This document shows, one piece after another, positions 21,542 to 31,922 of a DNA stretch of 64,000 bases. A program made the position numbers and the translations under genes. Numbering within the stretch: the stretch's first letter is position 1; each line of letters starts with the position of its first letter. A model generated the notes under the pieces. It made no database searches. It saw only the letters and a program-made list of their open reading frames with translations, and was not told where the DNA came from. Origin of the DNA: Armatimonadota bacterium (GTDB taxonomy: Bacteria > Armatimonadota > Fimbriimonadia > Fimbriimonadales > Fimbriimonadaceae); contig JAFDWQ010000003.1 in NCBI GenBank assembly GCA_018268395.1, positions 531,238 to 595,237 on the forward strand. The letters are read 5' to 3'.

Positions 21542-21560
21542 CGCGTTGACTGAAAATGGG

Positions 21561-21590
21561 AAGGGCAGGGGCCGTACGGCCCCTGCCCTT
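21561..21590. terminator. Bidirectional terminator: perfect 30-base palindrome
   Basis: aagggcaggggccgt followed directly by its exact reverse complement, between the stop of the barrel gene (21541) and the stop of ada (21607). On the minus strand it is followed by CCCATTTTCA, a short T run. It serves both convergent genes. Confidence 0.8.
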
Positions 21591-21606
21591 CGTCGCTTCT
21601 AATAGG

Positions 21607-27581: not shown

Positions 27582-28970
27582 GTGCGCGTGATCATGCTCT
27601 CGTGGGAGTATCCGCCCCGGATCGTCGGCGGCATCAGCCCGCACGTCCACGACCTGTCGCAAGAACTCGTCAAGGCCGGAGTCGAAGTCCACGTCGTCAC
27701 CAAGGCCACTCCCGCCGCGCCTGACGAAGAGACCGAACCCAGCGGCGTCCACGTCCACCGCGTCCCCCTCGCTTCCGAGCCCCACAACTTTGTCCACGAG
27801 ATCCAGCTCCTCAACCAGGCGACCGATATCCGCGTCCGGCGCCTCCTGGAAGATTGGCGCCCCGGCGGACAGCCCACGATCTTCCACGCTCACGACTGGC
27901 TTTCGCTCGACGCCGCCCGCGACCTCAAGTACGAGTACCAACTCCCCGTCATCGCGACCGTCCACGCCACCGAGCAAGGCCGCAACAACGGGCTGCACAC
28001 GGACATGAGCCGCTACATCCACGAACAGGAGTACTGGCTCACCTATGAGGCCTGGCGCGTCATCGTCTGCAGCACCTTCATGCGCGACGAGGTCGGACGG
28101 TTCTTCAACTGCCCGCCCGATAAAGTCGACATCGTCTACAACGGCGTCGACGCCGAGAAGTTCGAGTTCCAGGCGACGCCCGAAGAAGAAGCCGAATGGC
28201 GGGCGAGGCTCGCCAAGCCCGACGAGAAAATCGTCCTCTATGTCGGCCGCTTCGTCCGTGAAAAGGGGATCCACGTCCTCCTCAACGCCGCGAGCTGCGT
28301 TCTCGCCGAGGAGCCCGACGTCAAGTTCGTCATCGTCGGCGGAGGCAACCGTGAGAACCTCGAGCGGTTCGTCCGGTGGTTCGGGCTCGACGACCGCGTC
28401 CTCTTCACCGGGTTCATGCGCGGCCGAGCTTTGCACCAGCTCTACCGCGCCGCCGACGTCGCCGTTTTCCCCTCGCTCTATGAACCGTTCGGCATCGTCG
28501 CGCTCGAGGGCATGGCGGCCGGATGTGCCGTCGTCGCCTCCGACGCCGGCGGACTCCGCGAAGTCGTCGAACACGACGTCACGGGCACGTCGACCTTCGC
28601 CGGTGATCCAGGCTCGCTCGCCTGGGGGGTGCTCCGCGTCCTCCGCGATCCCGATCGGGCCGAGCGCTTGAAGGCCGCCGCCCGAGAGCGCCTGCGTACC
28701 GACTTTCACTGGAAGGCCATCGCGGCCCAGACGATCAAGGTCTACGAACGGGTGTGGGACGAGTTCCTCCAAAGCTACTGGGCCGACAAGACCCTTTGGC
28801 CCGTCACACCGGGCGCCGAAGAGCGCGCCGAACGCCTCGGGGTCCGGGACAAGGCCGTCACCGGCGCCTATGTGGCCCGCCCGCAGCCTTCGGTCTCCGT
28901 CCCCGCCGCCCTTCTCACCCCCGACCACGCCATCTCGGCGGGCGAATCGGAAGAAGAGGAACAGGAGTAA
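27582..28970 (+). CDS. GT4 glycosyltransferase, glycogen/alpha-glucan synthase-like
   Basis: 462 residues from GTG 27582. The N-terminal Rossmann domain begins MLSWEYPPRIVGGISPHVHD, typical of nucleotide-sugar-dependent glucan synthases. The C-terminal domain carries VLYVGRFVREKGIHVLL, FVIVGGGN, VLFTGFMRG and the E-x7-E motif EPFGIVALEG with A-S-D-A-G-G. Retaining glucosyl transfer from ADP- or UDP-glucose is expected. The last ~75 residues are a family-unlike extension ending in a Glu-rich tail. Beside GH15 it suggests storage glucan synthesis; mannosyl-type activity is the alternative. Confidence 0.82.
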   Translation: MRVIMLSWEYPPRIVGGISPHVHDLSQELVKAGVEVHVVTKATPAAPDEETEPSGVHVHRVPLASEPHNFVHEIQLLNQATDIRVRRLLEDWRPGGQPTIFHAHDWLSLDAARDLKYEYQLPVIATVHATEQGRNNGLHTDMSRYIHEQEYWLTYEAWRVIVCSTFMRDEVGRFFNCPPDKVDIVYNGVDAEKFEFQATPEEEAEWRARLAKPDEKIVLYVGRFVREKGIHVLLNAASCVLAEEPDVKFVIVGGGNRENLERFVRWFGLDDRVLFTGFMRGRALHQLYRAADVAVFPSLYEPFGIVALEGMAAGCAVVASDAGGLREVVEHDVTGTSTFAGDPGSLAWGVLRVLRDPDRAERLKAAARERLRTDFHWKAIAAQTIKVYERVWDEFLQSYWADKTLWPVTPGAEERAERLGVRDKAVTGAYVARPQPSVSVPAALLTPDHAISAGESEEEEQE

Positions 28971-28975
28971 GAGTA

Positions 28976-29034
28976 GGTCCGGAAAGCCCCCTACCCGTCT
29001 GCAGGGGATGGTTCGTGCCCCGAAGATGAGGAGG
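28976..29034 (+). repeat. Direct repeat R1 of the DUF559 island
   Basis: 59-bp unit starting ggtccggaaagcc and containing ctgcaggggatgg and gccccgaagatgaggagg. A near-identical copy (R2) lies at 29137-29194, and a partial copy follows IR2 near 29664. Confidence 0.8.
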
Positions 29035-29084
29035 GGGTCGGGGGTGGAGCGGTCCGGAGCCCCCACTCTCACCCCGGAACAGAC

Positions 29085-29138
29085 GGGCTCCGGACTCCCC
29101 CTCGCCCCTCCGGGGGAGAGGGGGCGGGGGGTGAGGGG
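29085..29138 (+). repeat. Inverted repeat IR1 flanking the DUF559 gene
   Basis: 54 bp beginning gggctccgga and ending ggggtgagggg. Its reverse complement occurs at 29609-29663 with only one inserted base in each copy. The unit itself is an imperfect palindrome (cccctcgcccctccggggga-type core), so it could form a REP-like hairpin. Confidence 0.8.
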
Positions 29139-29194
29139 TCCGGAAAGCCGCCTACTCGTCTGCAGGGGATGGCCGTGCCCCGAAGATGAGGAGG
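29137..29194 (+). repeat. Direct repeat R2 of the DUF559 island
   Basis: 58-bp copy of R1, 161 bp downstream of it, directly abutting IR1 and ending 12 bases before the nuclease stop codon. A few substitutions and one base missing relative to R1. Confidence 0.8.
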
Positions 29195-29205
29195 AGGGTG
29201 AGGGG

Positions 29206-29589
29206 TCAGGGGTCGGGGAACGCCTTGCGGCCGGTCCGCTCCTCACACTGCCGCTGCACCTGCAGGAGGTCGTTCGCGAAGACTTCCCCGAACATCATGA
29301 AGTAGCGGCGGTTCGGGATCCGATAGGTCGCGATCCCGAGGTCTTGCAGGGCCCGGTCCCGCACCGCGTCGCGCGAGGGCTCGTGCTGCTCACCATCGAG
29401 CTCGACGCAGAGCATGGCCTCGCGGCAGAAGAAGTCGAGGCGGTAGGGGCCGACGGGGTGCTCACGGCGGAATTTGAAGCCCAGCCGGCCGTCGCGCAGG
29501 CTCTCCCAGACCTGCCGCTCGACGACCGAGGGTCCCTTCCTCGCCTTTCTGGCCCGGTTCTTGGCCGCCTCGCCCCGGTTCCTCGGCAT
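29206..29589 (-). CDS. DUF559 / Vsr-like endonuclease-fold protein
   Basis: 127 residues from ATG 29589. The open frame extends upstream through IR2 as Pro/Arg/Gly-rich sequence, which is repeat-derived, so the internal ATG (M-P-R-N-R-G) is chosen. Core fold: E24 in VERQVWESL, GFKFRREHPVGPYRLDFFC with D52, and E63-L-D65-G-E67-x-H69, then DLGIATYRIPNRRYF. This D...E-x-D layout is that of the PD-(D/E)xK/Vsr-like DUF559 family, predicted nucleases. The last codons (F-P-D-P) sit in repeat-like DNA. Flanking inverted and direct repeats suggest a mobile or repeat-associated unit. Activity is unproven. Confidence 0.8.
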   Translation of the reverse strand: MPRNRGEAAKNRARKARKGPSVVERQVWESLRDGRLGFKFRREHPVGPYRLDFFCREAMLCVELDGEQHEPSRDAVRDRALQDLGIATYRIPNRRYFMMFGEVFANDLLQVQRQCEERTGRKAFPDP

Positions 29590-29608
29590 CGGTCTGCCGA
29601 GGTTACCG

Positions 29609-29663
29609 CCCCTCACCCCCCGACCCCCTCTCCCCCGGAGGGGCGAGGGGGAGCCGGAGCCCC
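29609..29663 (-). repeat. Inverted repeat IR2 flanking the DUF559 gene
   Basis: Reverse complement of IR1 (29085-29138), ending 19 bases upstream of the nuclease start codon. IR1 and IR2 bracket a segment of ~580 bp holding R2 and the gene. Confidence 0.8.
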
Positions 29664-29790
29664 TTCCTCGTGTGCAGGGGATGGTCCGTGACGGGAGGGA
29701 GAAGGGGGAGGGGATGAGGGTTGTCCGTGCCGGGCCAGTAGTATCACCCCTCACCCCCAGCCCCTTCCTTGTGTGCTGGCGACGGCCCGT
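29664..29790 (+). repeat. Partial and degenerate copies of the R unit
   Basis: 29664-29690 repeats cctcgtgtgcaggggatgg from R1/R2, followed by diverged GA-rich sequence. 29748-29790 has a second, weaker copy (cacccccagccccttccttg, then gctggcgacgg). Orientation matches R1 and R2. Confidence 0.6.
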
Positions 29791-29806
29791 GCATCAGAGG
29801 TGGTCA

Positions 29807-29834
29807 CGTCATCCCGAGCGATATCGAGGGATCT
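29807..29834. repeat. REP-like motif around cgatatcg
   Basis: Contains gtcatcccgagcgatatcg followed by agggatct, a near-palindrome centred on cgatatcg. Motifs of this kind (tcccgag...agggatc) occur as dispersed intergenic repeats in several bacterial groups. Only one copy lies in this window. Confidence 0.45.
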
Positions 29835-29874
29835 CCGGGAAGCCCGTGCCTTTGCTGCCCCTGTCTGGAGGAGT

Positions 29875-30063
29875 TTCGGTCCTTGTCGTGTCTTTTCCGG
29901 AACCGGCGGTGTGTCTTCCGGTCCTTGCCGCGTGCTTTCCGGTCCTTGTCGAGGTCCTTCTTCGCGAATGACGCACGCCAAGCACTCACTGGATCACTCC
30001 AAGCCTTCACTGGAGCACGCCCAGCGCTCACTGGAACACGCCCAGCGCTTACTGGAACGGCCC
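29875..30063. repeat. Array of nine 21-bp units in exact phase
   Basis: Nine 21-bp units fill 189 bp. Units 1-4 share tccggtccttg (unit 2 diverged), unit 5 (29959) is divergent, and units 6-9 share cactggancacgcc. Units 7 and 8 differ at few positions. Because 21 is seven codons, the array reads as heptapeptide repeats in every frame, but no gene is supported. Confidence 0.7.
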
Positions 30064-30144
30064 GAGTGACCCGCCCACCGCAATGAGGCCCTACTGGATC
30101 GCTCCGAGTGAACTTTGGGACTCTGGCAAGAGGAAGCGAGAAGA

Positions 30145-30169
30145 GGGCCGAAGCTCCCGGAGCGGGCCC
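30145..30169 (-). terminator. Possible terminator of the 580-residue secreted protein gene
   Basis: Minus-strand gggcc...ggccc arms enclose an inner gctcc/ggagc hairpin, starting 10 bases after the stop codon at 30180 and followed by TCTTCTCGCTTCC. Weak T run, so confidence is modest. Confidence 0.35.
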
Positions 30170-30179
30170 CCTTCCGAAT

Positions 30180-31922
30180 CTAACTTCCGCCTGTCAGGTC
30201 GAACCGGAGATGGTCGACCTGGACGCTCCAGAACGTCAGGTTCGCCACGGTGTCCTTGATGTTCACCCGGATCTGTGGGTGGTGGGTCGTGCCTTCTTTG
30301 CCGAAGAAACGGGCTTCGTAAGGCACGGCCAACCGGAACGACTTCCAGTTGTTCTTGATCTTCTCCTGGTCGTGCGGGATGTCAAAGTCCTCCCAGACTT
30401 CGTTCACGTAGTCCCATACCTCCATCCAGAGGTCGCACGTCGTGCCTGTGTTCAACCTCGCCGAGACGGTCGCAGTGAAGGCCTGGTCTCCATCCACTGT
30501 GAAGTCCGCGGAAAAGTCGAACTGGACGTTGGGGGTCGGCGGCGAAGAGTGCACCTTACCGATAGGGAAGTAGAGATTGTCATAGAACATCAGGGAGTCG
30601 GCCCATATCGAATAGTTGAAGGGTATGCCGTAGAGACCCCGCGTAATTTGAAAGTCGGAATCTGTGGTCGGAATGAGGGCGGGCCGGCTGACTTGGTAGC
30701 CGATGGCCAGCCTTGGGCTCGTCGGATCGGACCTCATGAGAAGATAGGGATAGGTGAGTTCCGTTCCTGGTTGTATGGCCGTGTCGTAGAGGATCTGCAT
30801 CCTCGAGGACAGCTCGCCGTTCTTCGCGTGCGCCCGGAGTCCGTCCACGTCGTTGTAGAACTTTCCGAGCCTGCCCTGGCCCTCGGTAAGGAACTGGTTG
30901 ACGATGAAGTACGACGTAGCTTGGGAATCAAGGTTCGAAAGCATCGTGTATTTGTCGACGGCCCGGACTCCTTGGACAGAGTAGTTGTGAAAAAAGAAGG
31001 TCCCCGCACTTTCGTTTTCGTCCCACGTGAACGCCTGGGCGGTCCCTTCCTTAGTCCCCGCGATGATGGTGATGCTAGAGCCGTTCTGGCTCAGTTCGTA
31101 TGACTTGATGTCATAGGCCCACCCGGAGGTGTTCCCTGGCCAGCCGTTCAAGAGCGTGATGCTCCAACCCGCGACGTTGCCGTTAGCATAGAACCCGCTC
31201 GGTTTCCAGATGCAGGGCAGCTTGAGGCCCGAGGTGGAGGTCGCGATATAGCCGACGACATAAGCCTTCGCGTTACACGAATACGCCTCGCCCGTAGTGT
31301 ATCCCTGTGGCAGCGGCAACGGTTGTGAGTTGTCAAGACCTGGCTGCCAATAGATCGGAATGGGAGGCGAGGTCTCCGTTTCATTCGCGCGGCCCACAGC
31401 GAGCATCCTCCACGCCTTTGCTTCGTAGTCAAACACATAAGGGTCGGCCCGGTTGAACCAACCCCACCGAAATGTTACGTGGGGAACGGCGAATGAACTG
31501 CCAAAACCTGGTTGCCCGTGCAGCCTAACCCAAAAGACGGGTTGGCGGACGTCTTCGACGATTCCTGATCCGACGACATACTCGTCGTGAACCGTGTTGG
31601 CGTGCTCTCCCGAATTCTCTTCGTCGTAAGATGCGATGTCGTTCGCGTGCGTGTTCGTGGCACCGGCTTCGCTCAGGGCGATCGGGACGCCGCTGTTGAG
31701 GTTTTCGTTGAAGTAGTGGGCGCGAGGGGTGTTGTCGCTCTTAAAGTCCGTCCTCGCGACATGTTTGTAGTCGTTGATGCCGCCTGCCTCCGACCGGACG
31801 TAAGGCGAGACCGTTGGCAGGTCGATGAACGTATAGCGCCAAGTGCTTCCTGGAAAGTCGGCGGGTTGTGCCGAAGAGATGCCAGCGGCCAGTGCTGCCG
31901 CGAGCACGAGGATGTGTTTCAT
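30180..31922 (-). CDS. Secreted HAF-like beta-rich protein
   Basis: 580 residues with a signal peptide (1-18). The early part carries HAF-repeat-like phrases (AGGINDYKHVARTDF, EYVVGSGIVE, AYVVGYIATSTSG, SITIIAGTKEGTAQAFTW), where a phrase about a state is followed by G-x-I-N-x-x-x-x-V. The C-terminal ~110 residues look like a carbohydrate-binding beta-sandwich (QFDFSADFTVDGDQAFTATV, TFWSVQVDHLRFDL). The role is unknown. It lies downstream of a canonical HAF protein (31999-33000) on the same strand, 76 bases apart, so the pair probably works at the cell surface together. Confidence 0.6.
   Translation of the reverse strand: MKHILVLAAALAAGISSAQPADFPGSTWRYTFIDLPTVSPYVRSEAGGINDYKHVARTDFKSDNTPRAHYFNENLNSGVPIALSEAGATNTHANDIASYDEENSGEHANTVHDEYVVGSGIVEDVRQPVFWVRLHGQPGFGSSFAVPHVTFRWGWFNRADPYVFDYEAKAWRMLAVGRANETETSPPIPIYWQPGLDNSQPLPLPQGYTTGEAYSCNAKAYVVGYIATSTSGLKLPCIWKPSGFYANGNVAGWSITLLNGWPGNTSGWAYDIKSYELSQNGSSITIIAGTKEGTAQAFTWDENESAGTFFFHNYSVQGVRAVDKYTMLSNLDSQATSYFIVNQFLTEGQGRLGKFYNDVDGLRAHAKNGELSSRMQILYDTAIQPGTELTYPYLLMRSDPTSPRLAIGYQVSRPALIPTTDSDFQITRGLYGIPFNYSIWADSLMFYDNLYFPIGKVHSSPPTPNVQFDFSADFTVDGDQAFTATVSARLNTGTTCDLWMEVWDYVNEVWEDFDIPHDQEKIKNNWKSFRLAVPYEARFFGKEGTTHHPQIRVNIKDTVANLTFWSVQVDHLRFDLTGGS

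Follow-up and report, generated by a model that had tools for sequence, protein, structure and literature searches.

The window analysed here is a 64-kb stretch of DNA from an Armatimonadota bacterium (hereafter the host), and it contains a repeat cluster (28976-29767) that surrounds a single minus-strand gene for a small DUF559 nuclease. The gene lies between two inverted repeats (IR1 and IR2), and a second type of hairpin repeat is present as direct copies (R1 and R2). The features of the cluster, in window positions, are:

29206..29589, minus strand: DUF559 (PF04480) PD-(D/E)XK nuclease gene as assigned by Pfam, 127 aa, with an ATG start at 29589
29085..29138, plus strand: IR1, the arm 3' of the gene, a hairpin with a gene-facing G-rich tail GGGGGGTGAGGGG
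29609..29662, minus strand: IR2, the arm on the gene's 5' side, 19 bp ahead of the ATG
28976..29045, plus strand: R1, a hairpin repeat of another type than the IRs, whose tail is TCGGGGGT(GGAG) and whose copies are scattered over the genome
29137..29206, plus strand: R2, a second copy of R1, ending at the gene's stop codon
29658..29708, plus strand: degenerate partial copy of R1 after IR2, 75% identical to R1 over 51 nt
29742..29767, plus strand: partial copy of the IR-type tail, marking where the 94% identity to a second unit elsewhere in the host genome stops on the right

A preliminary description of this DNA, made from its letters alone, had reported near-identical inverted repeats bracketing the gene, and this was borne out: IR1 and the inverted IR2 (29662-29609) are identical in 53 of 55 alignment columns, the other 2 being gap columns, and IR1 starts 67 bp past the gene's stop. 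The direct repeat, described as 58/59 bp long, is present but measures about 70 bp (71 columns, 90% identity), with R1 outside and R2 inside IR1. The gene's stop (29206-29208), which had been placed in repeat DNA, touches the end of R2, and the partial copy that had been placed after IR2 is accompanied by a further one at 29759-29809 (61%). An inner motif, approximately GATGnnnCGTGC, is found near the hairpin tip of the longer repeats (window 28985-29035 and 29146-29196, and loci L063, L071 and L105), and the 29146-29206 part of R2 folds with a z of -1.99. Calling each inverted repeat hairpin-prone holds only weakly for the window pair. Both have a folding energy near -15 kcal/mol and, owing to the G/C-simple sequence, dinucleotide shuffles fold equally well (z -0.04 and -0.16). 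Measured against base shuffles, arm hairpins across loci are strong (median z -3.3). The frame noted as running through IR2 is there as a 182-aa open frame, but its extension is probably not protein because the part alignable to relatives starts near the ATG at 29589.

The gene scores 74.7 bits against DUF559 (PF04480, cut-off 20.6), and Pfam found DUF559 alone in the window protein, plus MTES_1575 below cut-off; the HUH/Y1 domain (PF01797) was not found. Invariant columns among 39 sequences include R17, W28, D52, F53, E63, D65, G66, D74, R77 and R90, and E24 and H69 are nearly invariant. A structure model of the protein (predicted local distance difference test, pLDDT, 88.3; predicted template modelling score, pTM, 0.79) has its best fold match in 3HRL, an endonuclease-like protein of Neisseria (Z 15.3) that is also the sole strong match in a sequence search of the Protein Data Bank (E 1.9e-13). 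The second-best match is the homing endonuclease I-Bth0305I (3R3P; Z 11.7 over 93 residues, root-mean-square deviation 2.4). Vsr (1CW0), an enzyme of T:G mismatch repair found beside a cytosine methylase, scores Z 9.6, and two mitoribosomal proteins score between I-Bth0305I and Vsr. As modelled, the window protein has a Vsr/I-Bth0305I-like PD-(D/E)XK fold, in line with the Vsr-like label it had been given, and such a shared fold shows no function by itself. Selection on the gene is purifying (dN/dS 0.04-0.21 in 5 of 6 DUF559 pairs, the computable ones). The conserved E24, D52, H69 and D74 would fit the EDxHD motif in a mapping made here; according to the passages available of PMC9403480, a DUF559-containing gene in an intein context has been placed in the EDxHD homing endonuclease family. 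Text passages of PMC12907096 describe Caulobacter VsrA (CCNA_02930), a DUF559 protein, as needed for the SOS response in the absence of the methylase ScmA, and propose it as a mismatch endonuclease.

The host genome (3.72 Mb) has three DUF559 genes, and the one on contig 8 belongs to a second unit that is 94% identical to the window unit over 736 aligned columns, arms included, with additional tandem repeat copies on one side. The two DUF559 genes differ by a dS of 0.045 (dN/dS 0.15), while related genes found downstream of both units, with one more gene between in the window, differ by a dS of 0.81; because of this disparity, the sequences indicate that the unit was copied or converted recently. 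The same values are consistent with copying by one mechanism or another, biased homing into unoccupied alleles being no more than a possible one. A 901-bp query gave 61 matches in the host genome, self-matches and overlaps counted and many of them on R1, and both repeat types are scattered across the genome, as the preliminary description requires. Short direct repeats also follow the window unit at 29874-29951 and 29973-30056, with a TTCCGGTCCTTGTCG type occurring three times and a tandem 21-bp unit ending ACTGGA, and DNA related to them follows the second unit on contig 8.

The bracketing of DUF559 genes by inverted repeats turned out to be general. A genome-wide scan confirmed 545 relatives, of which the best 80 became named loci and 4 were dropped for short flanks. 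In 58 of the remaining 76, the two 400-bp flanks matched each other in inverted orientation at 30 bits or more; the control, in which windows were moved stepwise over these loci, gave 3 of 972 (one of the 3 reaching 60 bits). Over all loci, 104 of 141 distinct DUF559 genes had an inverted repeat of at least 30 bits between 300-bp flanks, 11 of 152 genes having been dropped for short flanks, in a non-random set composed of best-scoring matches, hand-listed stretches and comparison stretches from genera g30 and g19. HNH genes of the same genomes served as a control and showed an inverted repeat in 0 of 27 cases (3 of 30 were cut by contig ends and dropped), and left flanks paired with the right flanks of other loci matched in 35 of 560. 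With groups read from the titles of the records, and L098 ('bacterium') placed with Armatimonadota, the 30-bit threshold was reached by 21/25 loci in Armatimonadota, 28/34 in Alphaproteobacteria with unassigned Proteobacteria, 3/3 in Planctomycetota, 3/4 in Verrucomicrobiota, 1/1 each in Betaproteobacteria and Ignavibacteria, and 1/2 in an archaeal-labelled metagenome-assembled genome, and by none in Bacteroidota (0/3), Patescibacteria (0/1), Myxococcota (0/1) or Gammaproteobacteria (0/1). The bracketed arrangement spans five phyla. Two contigs titled as Methanoregulaceae archaeon (L080 and L096) carry DUF559 genes of Armatimonadota type, and the title of L080 is probably wrong because its arms equal those of L056, from a host-family genome.

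The arrangement also occurs on plasmids. A plasmid collection held 33 records with a DUF559 relative, and 13 loci chosen by hand were examined: 8 had an inverted repeat at 29 bits or more and 7 at 30 or more. The positive loci come from two Deinococcus plasmids and from Sphingomonas, Novosphingobium, Sphingobium, Qipengyuania, Sinorhizobium (arms of 114 bp, 96.5% identity) and Neisseria, and those below 29 bits from Azospirillum, E. coli, Photobacterium and two cyanobacteria. A search of phage records at 1e-6 yielded no DUF559 relative.

Read toward the gene, an arm consists of a C-rich start, a hairpin and a G-rich end, the latter often GGGGTGAGG in Armatimonadota. Across 109 loci, the outer third is C-rich and the gene-facing third G-rich in 100 and the opposite in 1, and the median distance between arm and aligned domain is 32 bp on the 5' side and 36 bp on the 3' side. 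Comparing the two arms of one locus over 1669 pairs, 41 had changed on both sides and still pair, where a simple independence model expects 3.6; in 156 the change was one-sided, and 15 no longer pair after changes on both sides. Because so many two-sided changes preserve pairing, the hairpin of the arms seems to be maintained. Repeats are common only to pairs of very similar proteins. Two published repeat tags were sought in the arms of 114 loci (the 109 plus 5 plasmid loci). GTAG occurs anywhere in an arm at 19 of them, and a CGTC-stem-CCA hairpin at 4 of the 34 from Alphaproteobacteria and none of the remaining 80 (shuffles 3/680 for the alphaproteobacterial loci); a CGTC-tagged repetitive extragenic palindrome (REP) was rejected as the identity of the arms on these counts and is kept as a lead.

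The distribution of the repeats across genomes was assessed with a common pattern, CCCTC-N4..34-GAGGG-N1..6-GGGGTGAGG, which occurs in 67 of 121 relatives; its backward control matched twice. Genomes were scored DUF559-positive at a PF04480 E of 1e-10 or better, a threshold set by hand, with G087 (2.6e-13, a partial match in a 287-aa frame) left out of the positives and G058, positive in one scan only, counted as negative. Within the host family, and with no tree used in this or any other of these comparisons of genomes, at least three copies of the pattern were present in 26 of the 46 genomes scored positive and in 1 of the 27 scored negative (26/47 and 1/26 with G058 moved to the positives), and the difference persisted after collapsing to genera (14/23 vs 1/9, p 0.018). 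Together with the bracketing counts, this supports the proposed link between repeats and DUF559 genes. The remaining relatives showed a non-significant difference (7/13 vs 4/17).

An alternative partner would be the Y1 enzyme of REP-associated tyrosine transposases (RAYTs); Y1_Tnp matches occur in 82 of the 121 relatives and four times in the host genome. Among host-family genomes lacking Y1_Tnp, at least three repeats were present in 5 of 11 with DUF559 and 0 of 20 without (5/12 and 0/19 with G058 moved); among those with Y1_Tnp, the counts were 21/35 and 1/7. Repeats in the host family track DUF559, not Y1_Tnp. Inverted repeats that differ in sequence type accompany 5 of 8 Y1 loci in the same phylum (L305, L306, L310, L311 and L313; 2 of 10 loci were cut by contig ends), and the DUF559-type pattern was found at 0 of the 10 and at 0 of 5 Y1 loci of the sister family f2. 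A RAYT as the driver is consequently disfavoured in the host family. Dispersed copies were also counted in two genera: four genomes of genus g30 gave 27, 68, 48 and 17 matches to a query from L072 that includes host flanks, each of four further ones gave a single match, and one arm in each of two Caulobacter genomes gave at least 44 and at least 41 matches (40 of 119 and 109 candidates scored).

Units are present at some sites and absent from the corresponding sites of relatives, which was observed at three sites. At a site in genus g19, G021 and G071 have a unit between two genes that in G122, G123 and G125 are separated by hardly any additional DNA or none. In the hpa cluster of Deinococcus, D. 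proteolyticus and D. wulumuqiensis have the unit in the gap separating hpaB from an oxidoreductase gene, and Deinococcus NW-56 has it in the gap from the oxidoreductase gene to hpaE, so that it takes different places within one gene cluster (L432 vs L441); D. radiodurans, D. ficus and D. deserti have the cluster without it. The D. wulumuqiensis DUF559 gene (L440 1030-1191) is 5'-truncated between arm remnants and, judged from these remains, is part of a decaying unit. In Sphingobium RAC03 a unit separates two carboxylase genes whose counterparts in Sphingobium V4 and RC1 and in Caulobacter FWC26 almost touch. Two of the three sites (L060 and L430) have some additional DNA beyond the arms. The window unit itself is not ancestral at its place, because orthologues of the preceding glycosyltransferase gene in two same-genus genomes have other DNA after them, without repeats or DUF559 in the 700 bp viewed, although the neighbours differ too. 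This glycosyltransferase has a 462-aa frame and looks like a glycogen synthase.

Some further observations were made at these sites and in the window. The g19 site in G069 is occupied by a different element of about 110 bp with mirrored ends (L212, ~1511592-1511728 of contig 1), and S. parapaucimobilis has a barstar-family gene (L438 443-721) in the gap that holds the unit in Sphingobium RAC03. Beside the RAC03 unit lie short pieces resembling both flanking host genes (L430 1165-1330), perhaps the trace of an insertion event. Self-comparison of the window showed a perfect 32-bp palindrome at 21560-21591. Searching 28900-30200 against Rfam returned only two chance-level microRNA matches (E 0.031 and 0.048), far under the gathering scores. 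The sole PADLOC match, to DpdF, is weak (E 0.025) and was not counted as defence evidence.

Taken together, the arrangement is general, its arms belong to dispersed families wherever copies were counted, a site may hold a whole unit in one relative and none in another, one unit of the host was copied or converted recently, and the nuclease is under purifying selection. With belief and doubt in about equal measure, I propose that a DUF559 gene and its two inverted hairpin repeats form a transmissible, repeat-associated PD-(D/E)XK nuclease unit that works in a REP/RAYT-like or homing-like manner. The nuclease would recognise its own hairpin-plus-tail repeat, extruded or single-stranded, and would nick or cut there; repair of the break from ectopic copies would multiply the repeats, and where both arms serve as homology, the gene-bearing unit would be copied. 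Most dispersed repeats would then be gene-free descendants. Action on its own hairpins is proposed because it gives one account of the arms, their dispersed copies, the association across the family and the changing location of units, and because the modelled fold is shared with homing and mismatch-sensing nucleases. Recognition, cutting and repair as the copying step are the conjectural part of this scheme. The anatomy agrees with the repeat-associated nuclease unit of REP/RAYT-like logic suggested in the preliminary description; less in keeping with it, most dispersed repeats are not adjacent to any DUF559 gene, and family f2 shows no association.

Several results count against such a unit. 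At single loci, 37 of the 141 DUF559 genes, including the third one of the host, have no inverted repeat at 30 bits, and the tail faces outward in Deinococcus. Protein and repeat similarity are uncorrelated over the 109 loci (Mantel rho 0.028, 303 of 1000 permutations as high), so specificity of enzyme for repeat is not supported, and co-evolution of the two by sequence was rejected at that scale. The host-family association weakens to 26/51 vs 1/22 (p 0.0001) when every PF04480 match is counted, and its Y1-positive stratum then gives p 0.17. In f2, at least three repeats occur in 5 of 6 DUF559 genomes and 8 of 12 others (5/7 and 8/11 with G087 moved), and two f2 genomes, G077 and G083, have 97 and 104 pattern matches without any PF04480 match, an abundance that the f2 Y1 loci leave unexplained. 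In genus g30, the only DUF559 match of G066, which has the 68 matches to the L072 query, is a 411-aa frame without inverted repeat, and G050, G032 and G072 have DUF559 matches and none of that repeat. Finally, the comparison of occupied and empty sites, suggested for detecting precise excision, gave presence and absence but no precise borders: at the sites compared, sequence divergence around the junctions hides the exact ends and any target duplication. Repeats can persist without their enzyme, as passages of PMC8049555 describe for RAYT-less E. coli, and this would soften, not remove, the objections from co-evolution, f2 and g30. The repeats of G077 and G083 (loci L394-L422) come in several variants of the stem, and some stand in tandem at a spacing of about 100 bp.

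One rival explanation is that the hairpins are moved in trans, for example by a Y1/HUH RAYT-type transposase, and that the DUF559 gene is cargo on a non-autonomous passenger. The many Y1_Tnp matches and the repeats without DUF559 in f2 speak for it, and so do three repeated segments in Legionella, mutation and recombination hotspots in which a transposase and a DUF559 gene occur together (PMC12308824, in the passages available); these hotspots fit either the passenger or a nuclease-driven unit. It is made unlikely by the host-family genomes in which repeats accompany DUF559 in the absence of Y1_Tnp, set against their absence from genomes with neither and a single case with Y1 only, and by the different repeats at Y1 loci, in a search that covered Y1 among the transposase families.

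Alternatively, DUF559 may be a Vsr-like host repair or defence nuclease spread by ordinary recombination, with hairpins that act as terminators, insulators or exchange sites and not as substrates. The reported SOS role of VsrA and its proposed mismatch endonuclease activity (passages of PMC12907096), the position of IR2 just ahead of the start codon and the purifying selection on DUF559 all agree with this. Insulation would leave unexplained the near-identity of the inverted arms, their compensated changes, the dispersed copies and the varied insertion places within one cluster, and I consider this explanation improbable. Chance or composition, by which G/C-simple intergenic DNA would give inverted matches near any gene, could accommodate window repeats that fold no better than dinucleotide shuffles and the matches among mismatched flanks, but can hardly be correct in view of the bracketed proportion of DUF559 genes (104/141) against 3/972, 0/27 and 35/560 in the controls.

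The proposal of a nuclease-driven unit can be widened, as a tentative idea that I hold to be somewhat less probable than its failure, to a second, non-HUH world of REPs in which DUF559 enzymes across at least five phyla recognise and cut hairpin repeats, spread gene-free copies of them and copy their own bracketed gene. G/C-rich hairpin repeats of no known origin are abundant between the genes of many bacteria, and DUF559, a domain of wide occurrence, bears a name that marks its function as unknown; a general physical link between them offers a testable explanation for both. If correct, populations of REP-like repeats would have at least two origins, with unrelated enzymes, and an enzyme could be assigned to orphan repeat families, possibly including some CGTC-tagged or rhizobial ones said to lack a transposase. 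The question of what moves RAYT-less REPs, raised in passages of PMC3733652, would become a direct experiment. The arrangement is relevant to Caulobacter VsrA, too: the passages available of PMC12907096 report that this protein damages DNA and do not mention a possible mobile-unit context.

No description of DUF559 genes between inverted hairpin repeats was found in the open-licence literature, covered largely as text passages, including those of PMC6712171, PMC8861277, PMC9845703, PMC7251935, PMC8049555, PMC2573895 and PMC3733652; PMC9927313 matches only DUF5590, and the Legionella passages of PMC12308824 come nearest. Among known systems, REP/RAYT (the REPtron, with its REP doublets forming hairpins, or REPINs) is similar in having one small nuclease gene between inverted hairpin repeats, a hairpin with an unpaired tail, and repeats that are also dispersed as gene-free copies. 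It differs in its enzyme, an HUH/Y1 tyrosine enzyme there and a DUF559 PD-(D/E)XK protein here, and in its GTAG tag at the hairpin foot, which is not a general feature of the DUF559 arms; moreover, DUF559 genes are often several per genome, with insertions between the genes of one cluster. Terminal inverted repeat-associated tyrosine transposases (TIRYTs, in TIRtrons) likewise have longer inverted repeats flanking the enzyme gene, some of which form repeat families (passages of PMC3733652), but they are tyrosine transposases, and the repeats at the Y1 loci examined here differ in sequence. An insertion sequence with terminal inverted repeats would encode a DDE, HUH or serine transposase between its arms, where the unit has DUF559.

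CGTC REPs and RIME-like rhizobial repeats (Rhizobium-specific intergenic mosaic elements) are hairpin repeat families too, and only a minority of arms fit them; the 114-bp Sinorhizobium arm may resemble RIME. By modelled fold, the protein is close to Vsr, and Caulobacter VsrA is itself a DUF559 protein; the repeat link seen here is not mentioned for VsrA in the passages available of PMC12907096. The modelled fold is closer still to EDxHD homing endonucleases such as I-Bth0305I, but the units here are in no intron or intein and have no single conserved split target, lying instead at many intergenic places and carrying inverted repeats. On this comparison, the best reading is that the DUF559 unit may resemble a REPtron or a homing unit in its working and belongs to neither, because it is without the enzyme and tag of the former and without the fixed split target of the latter.
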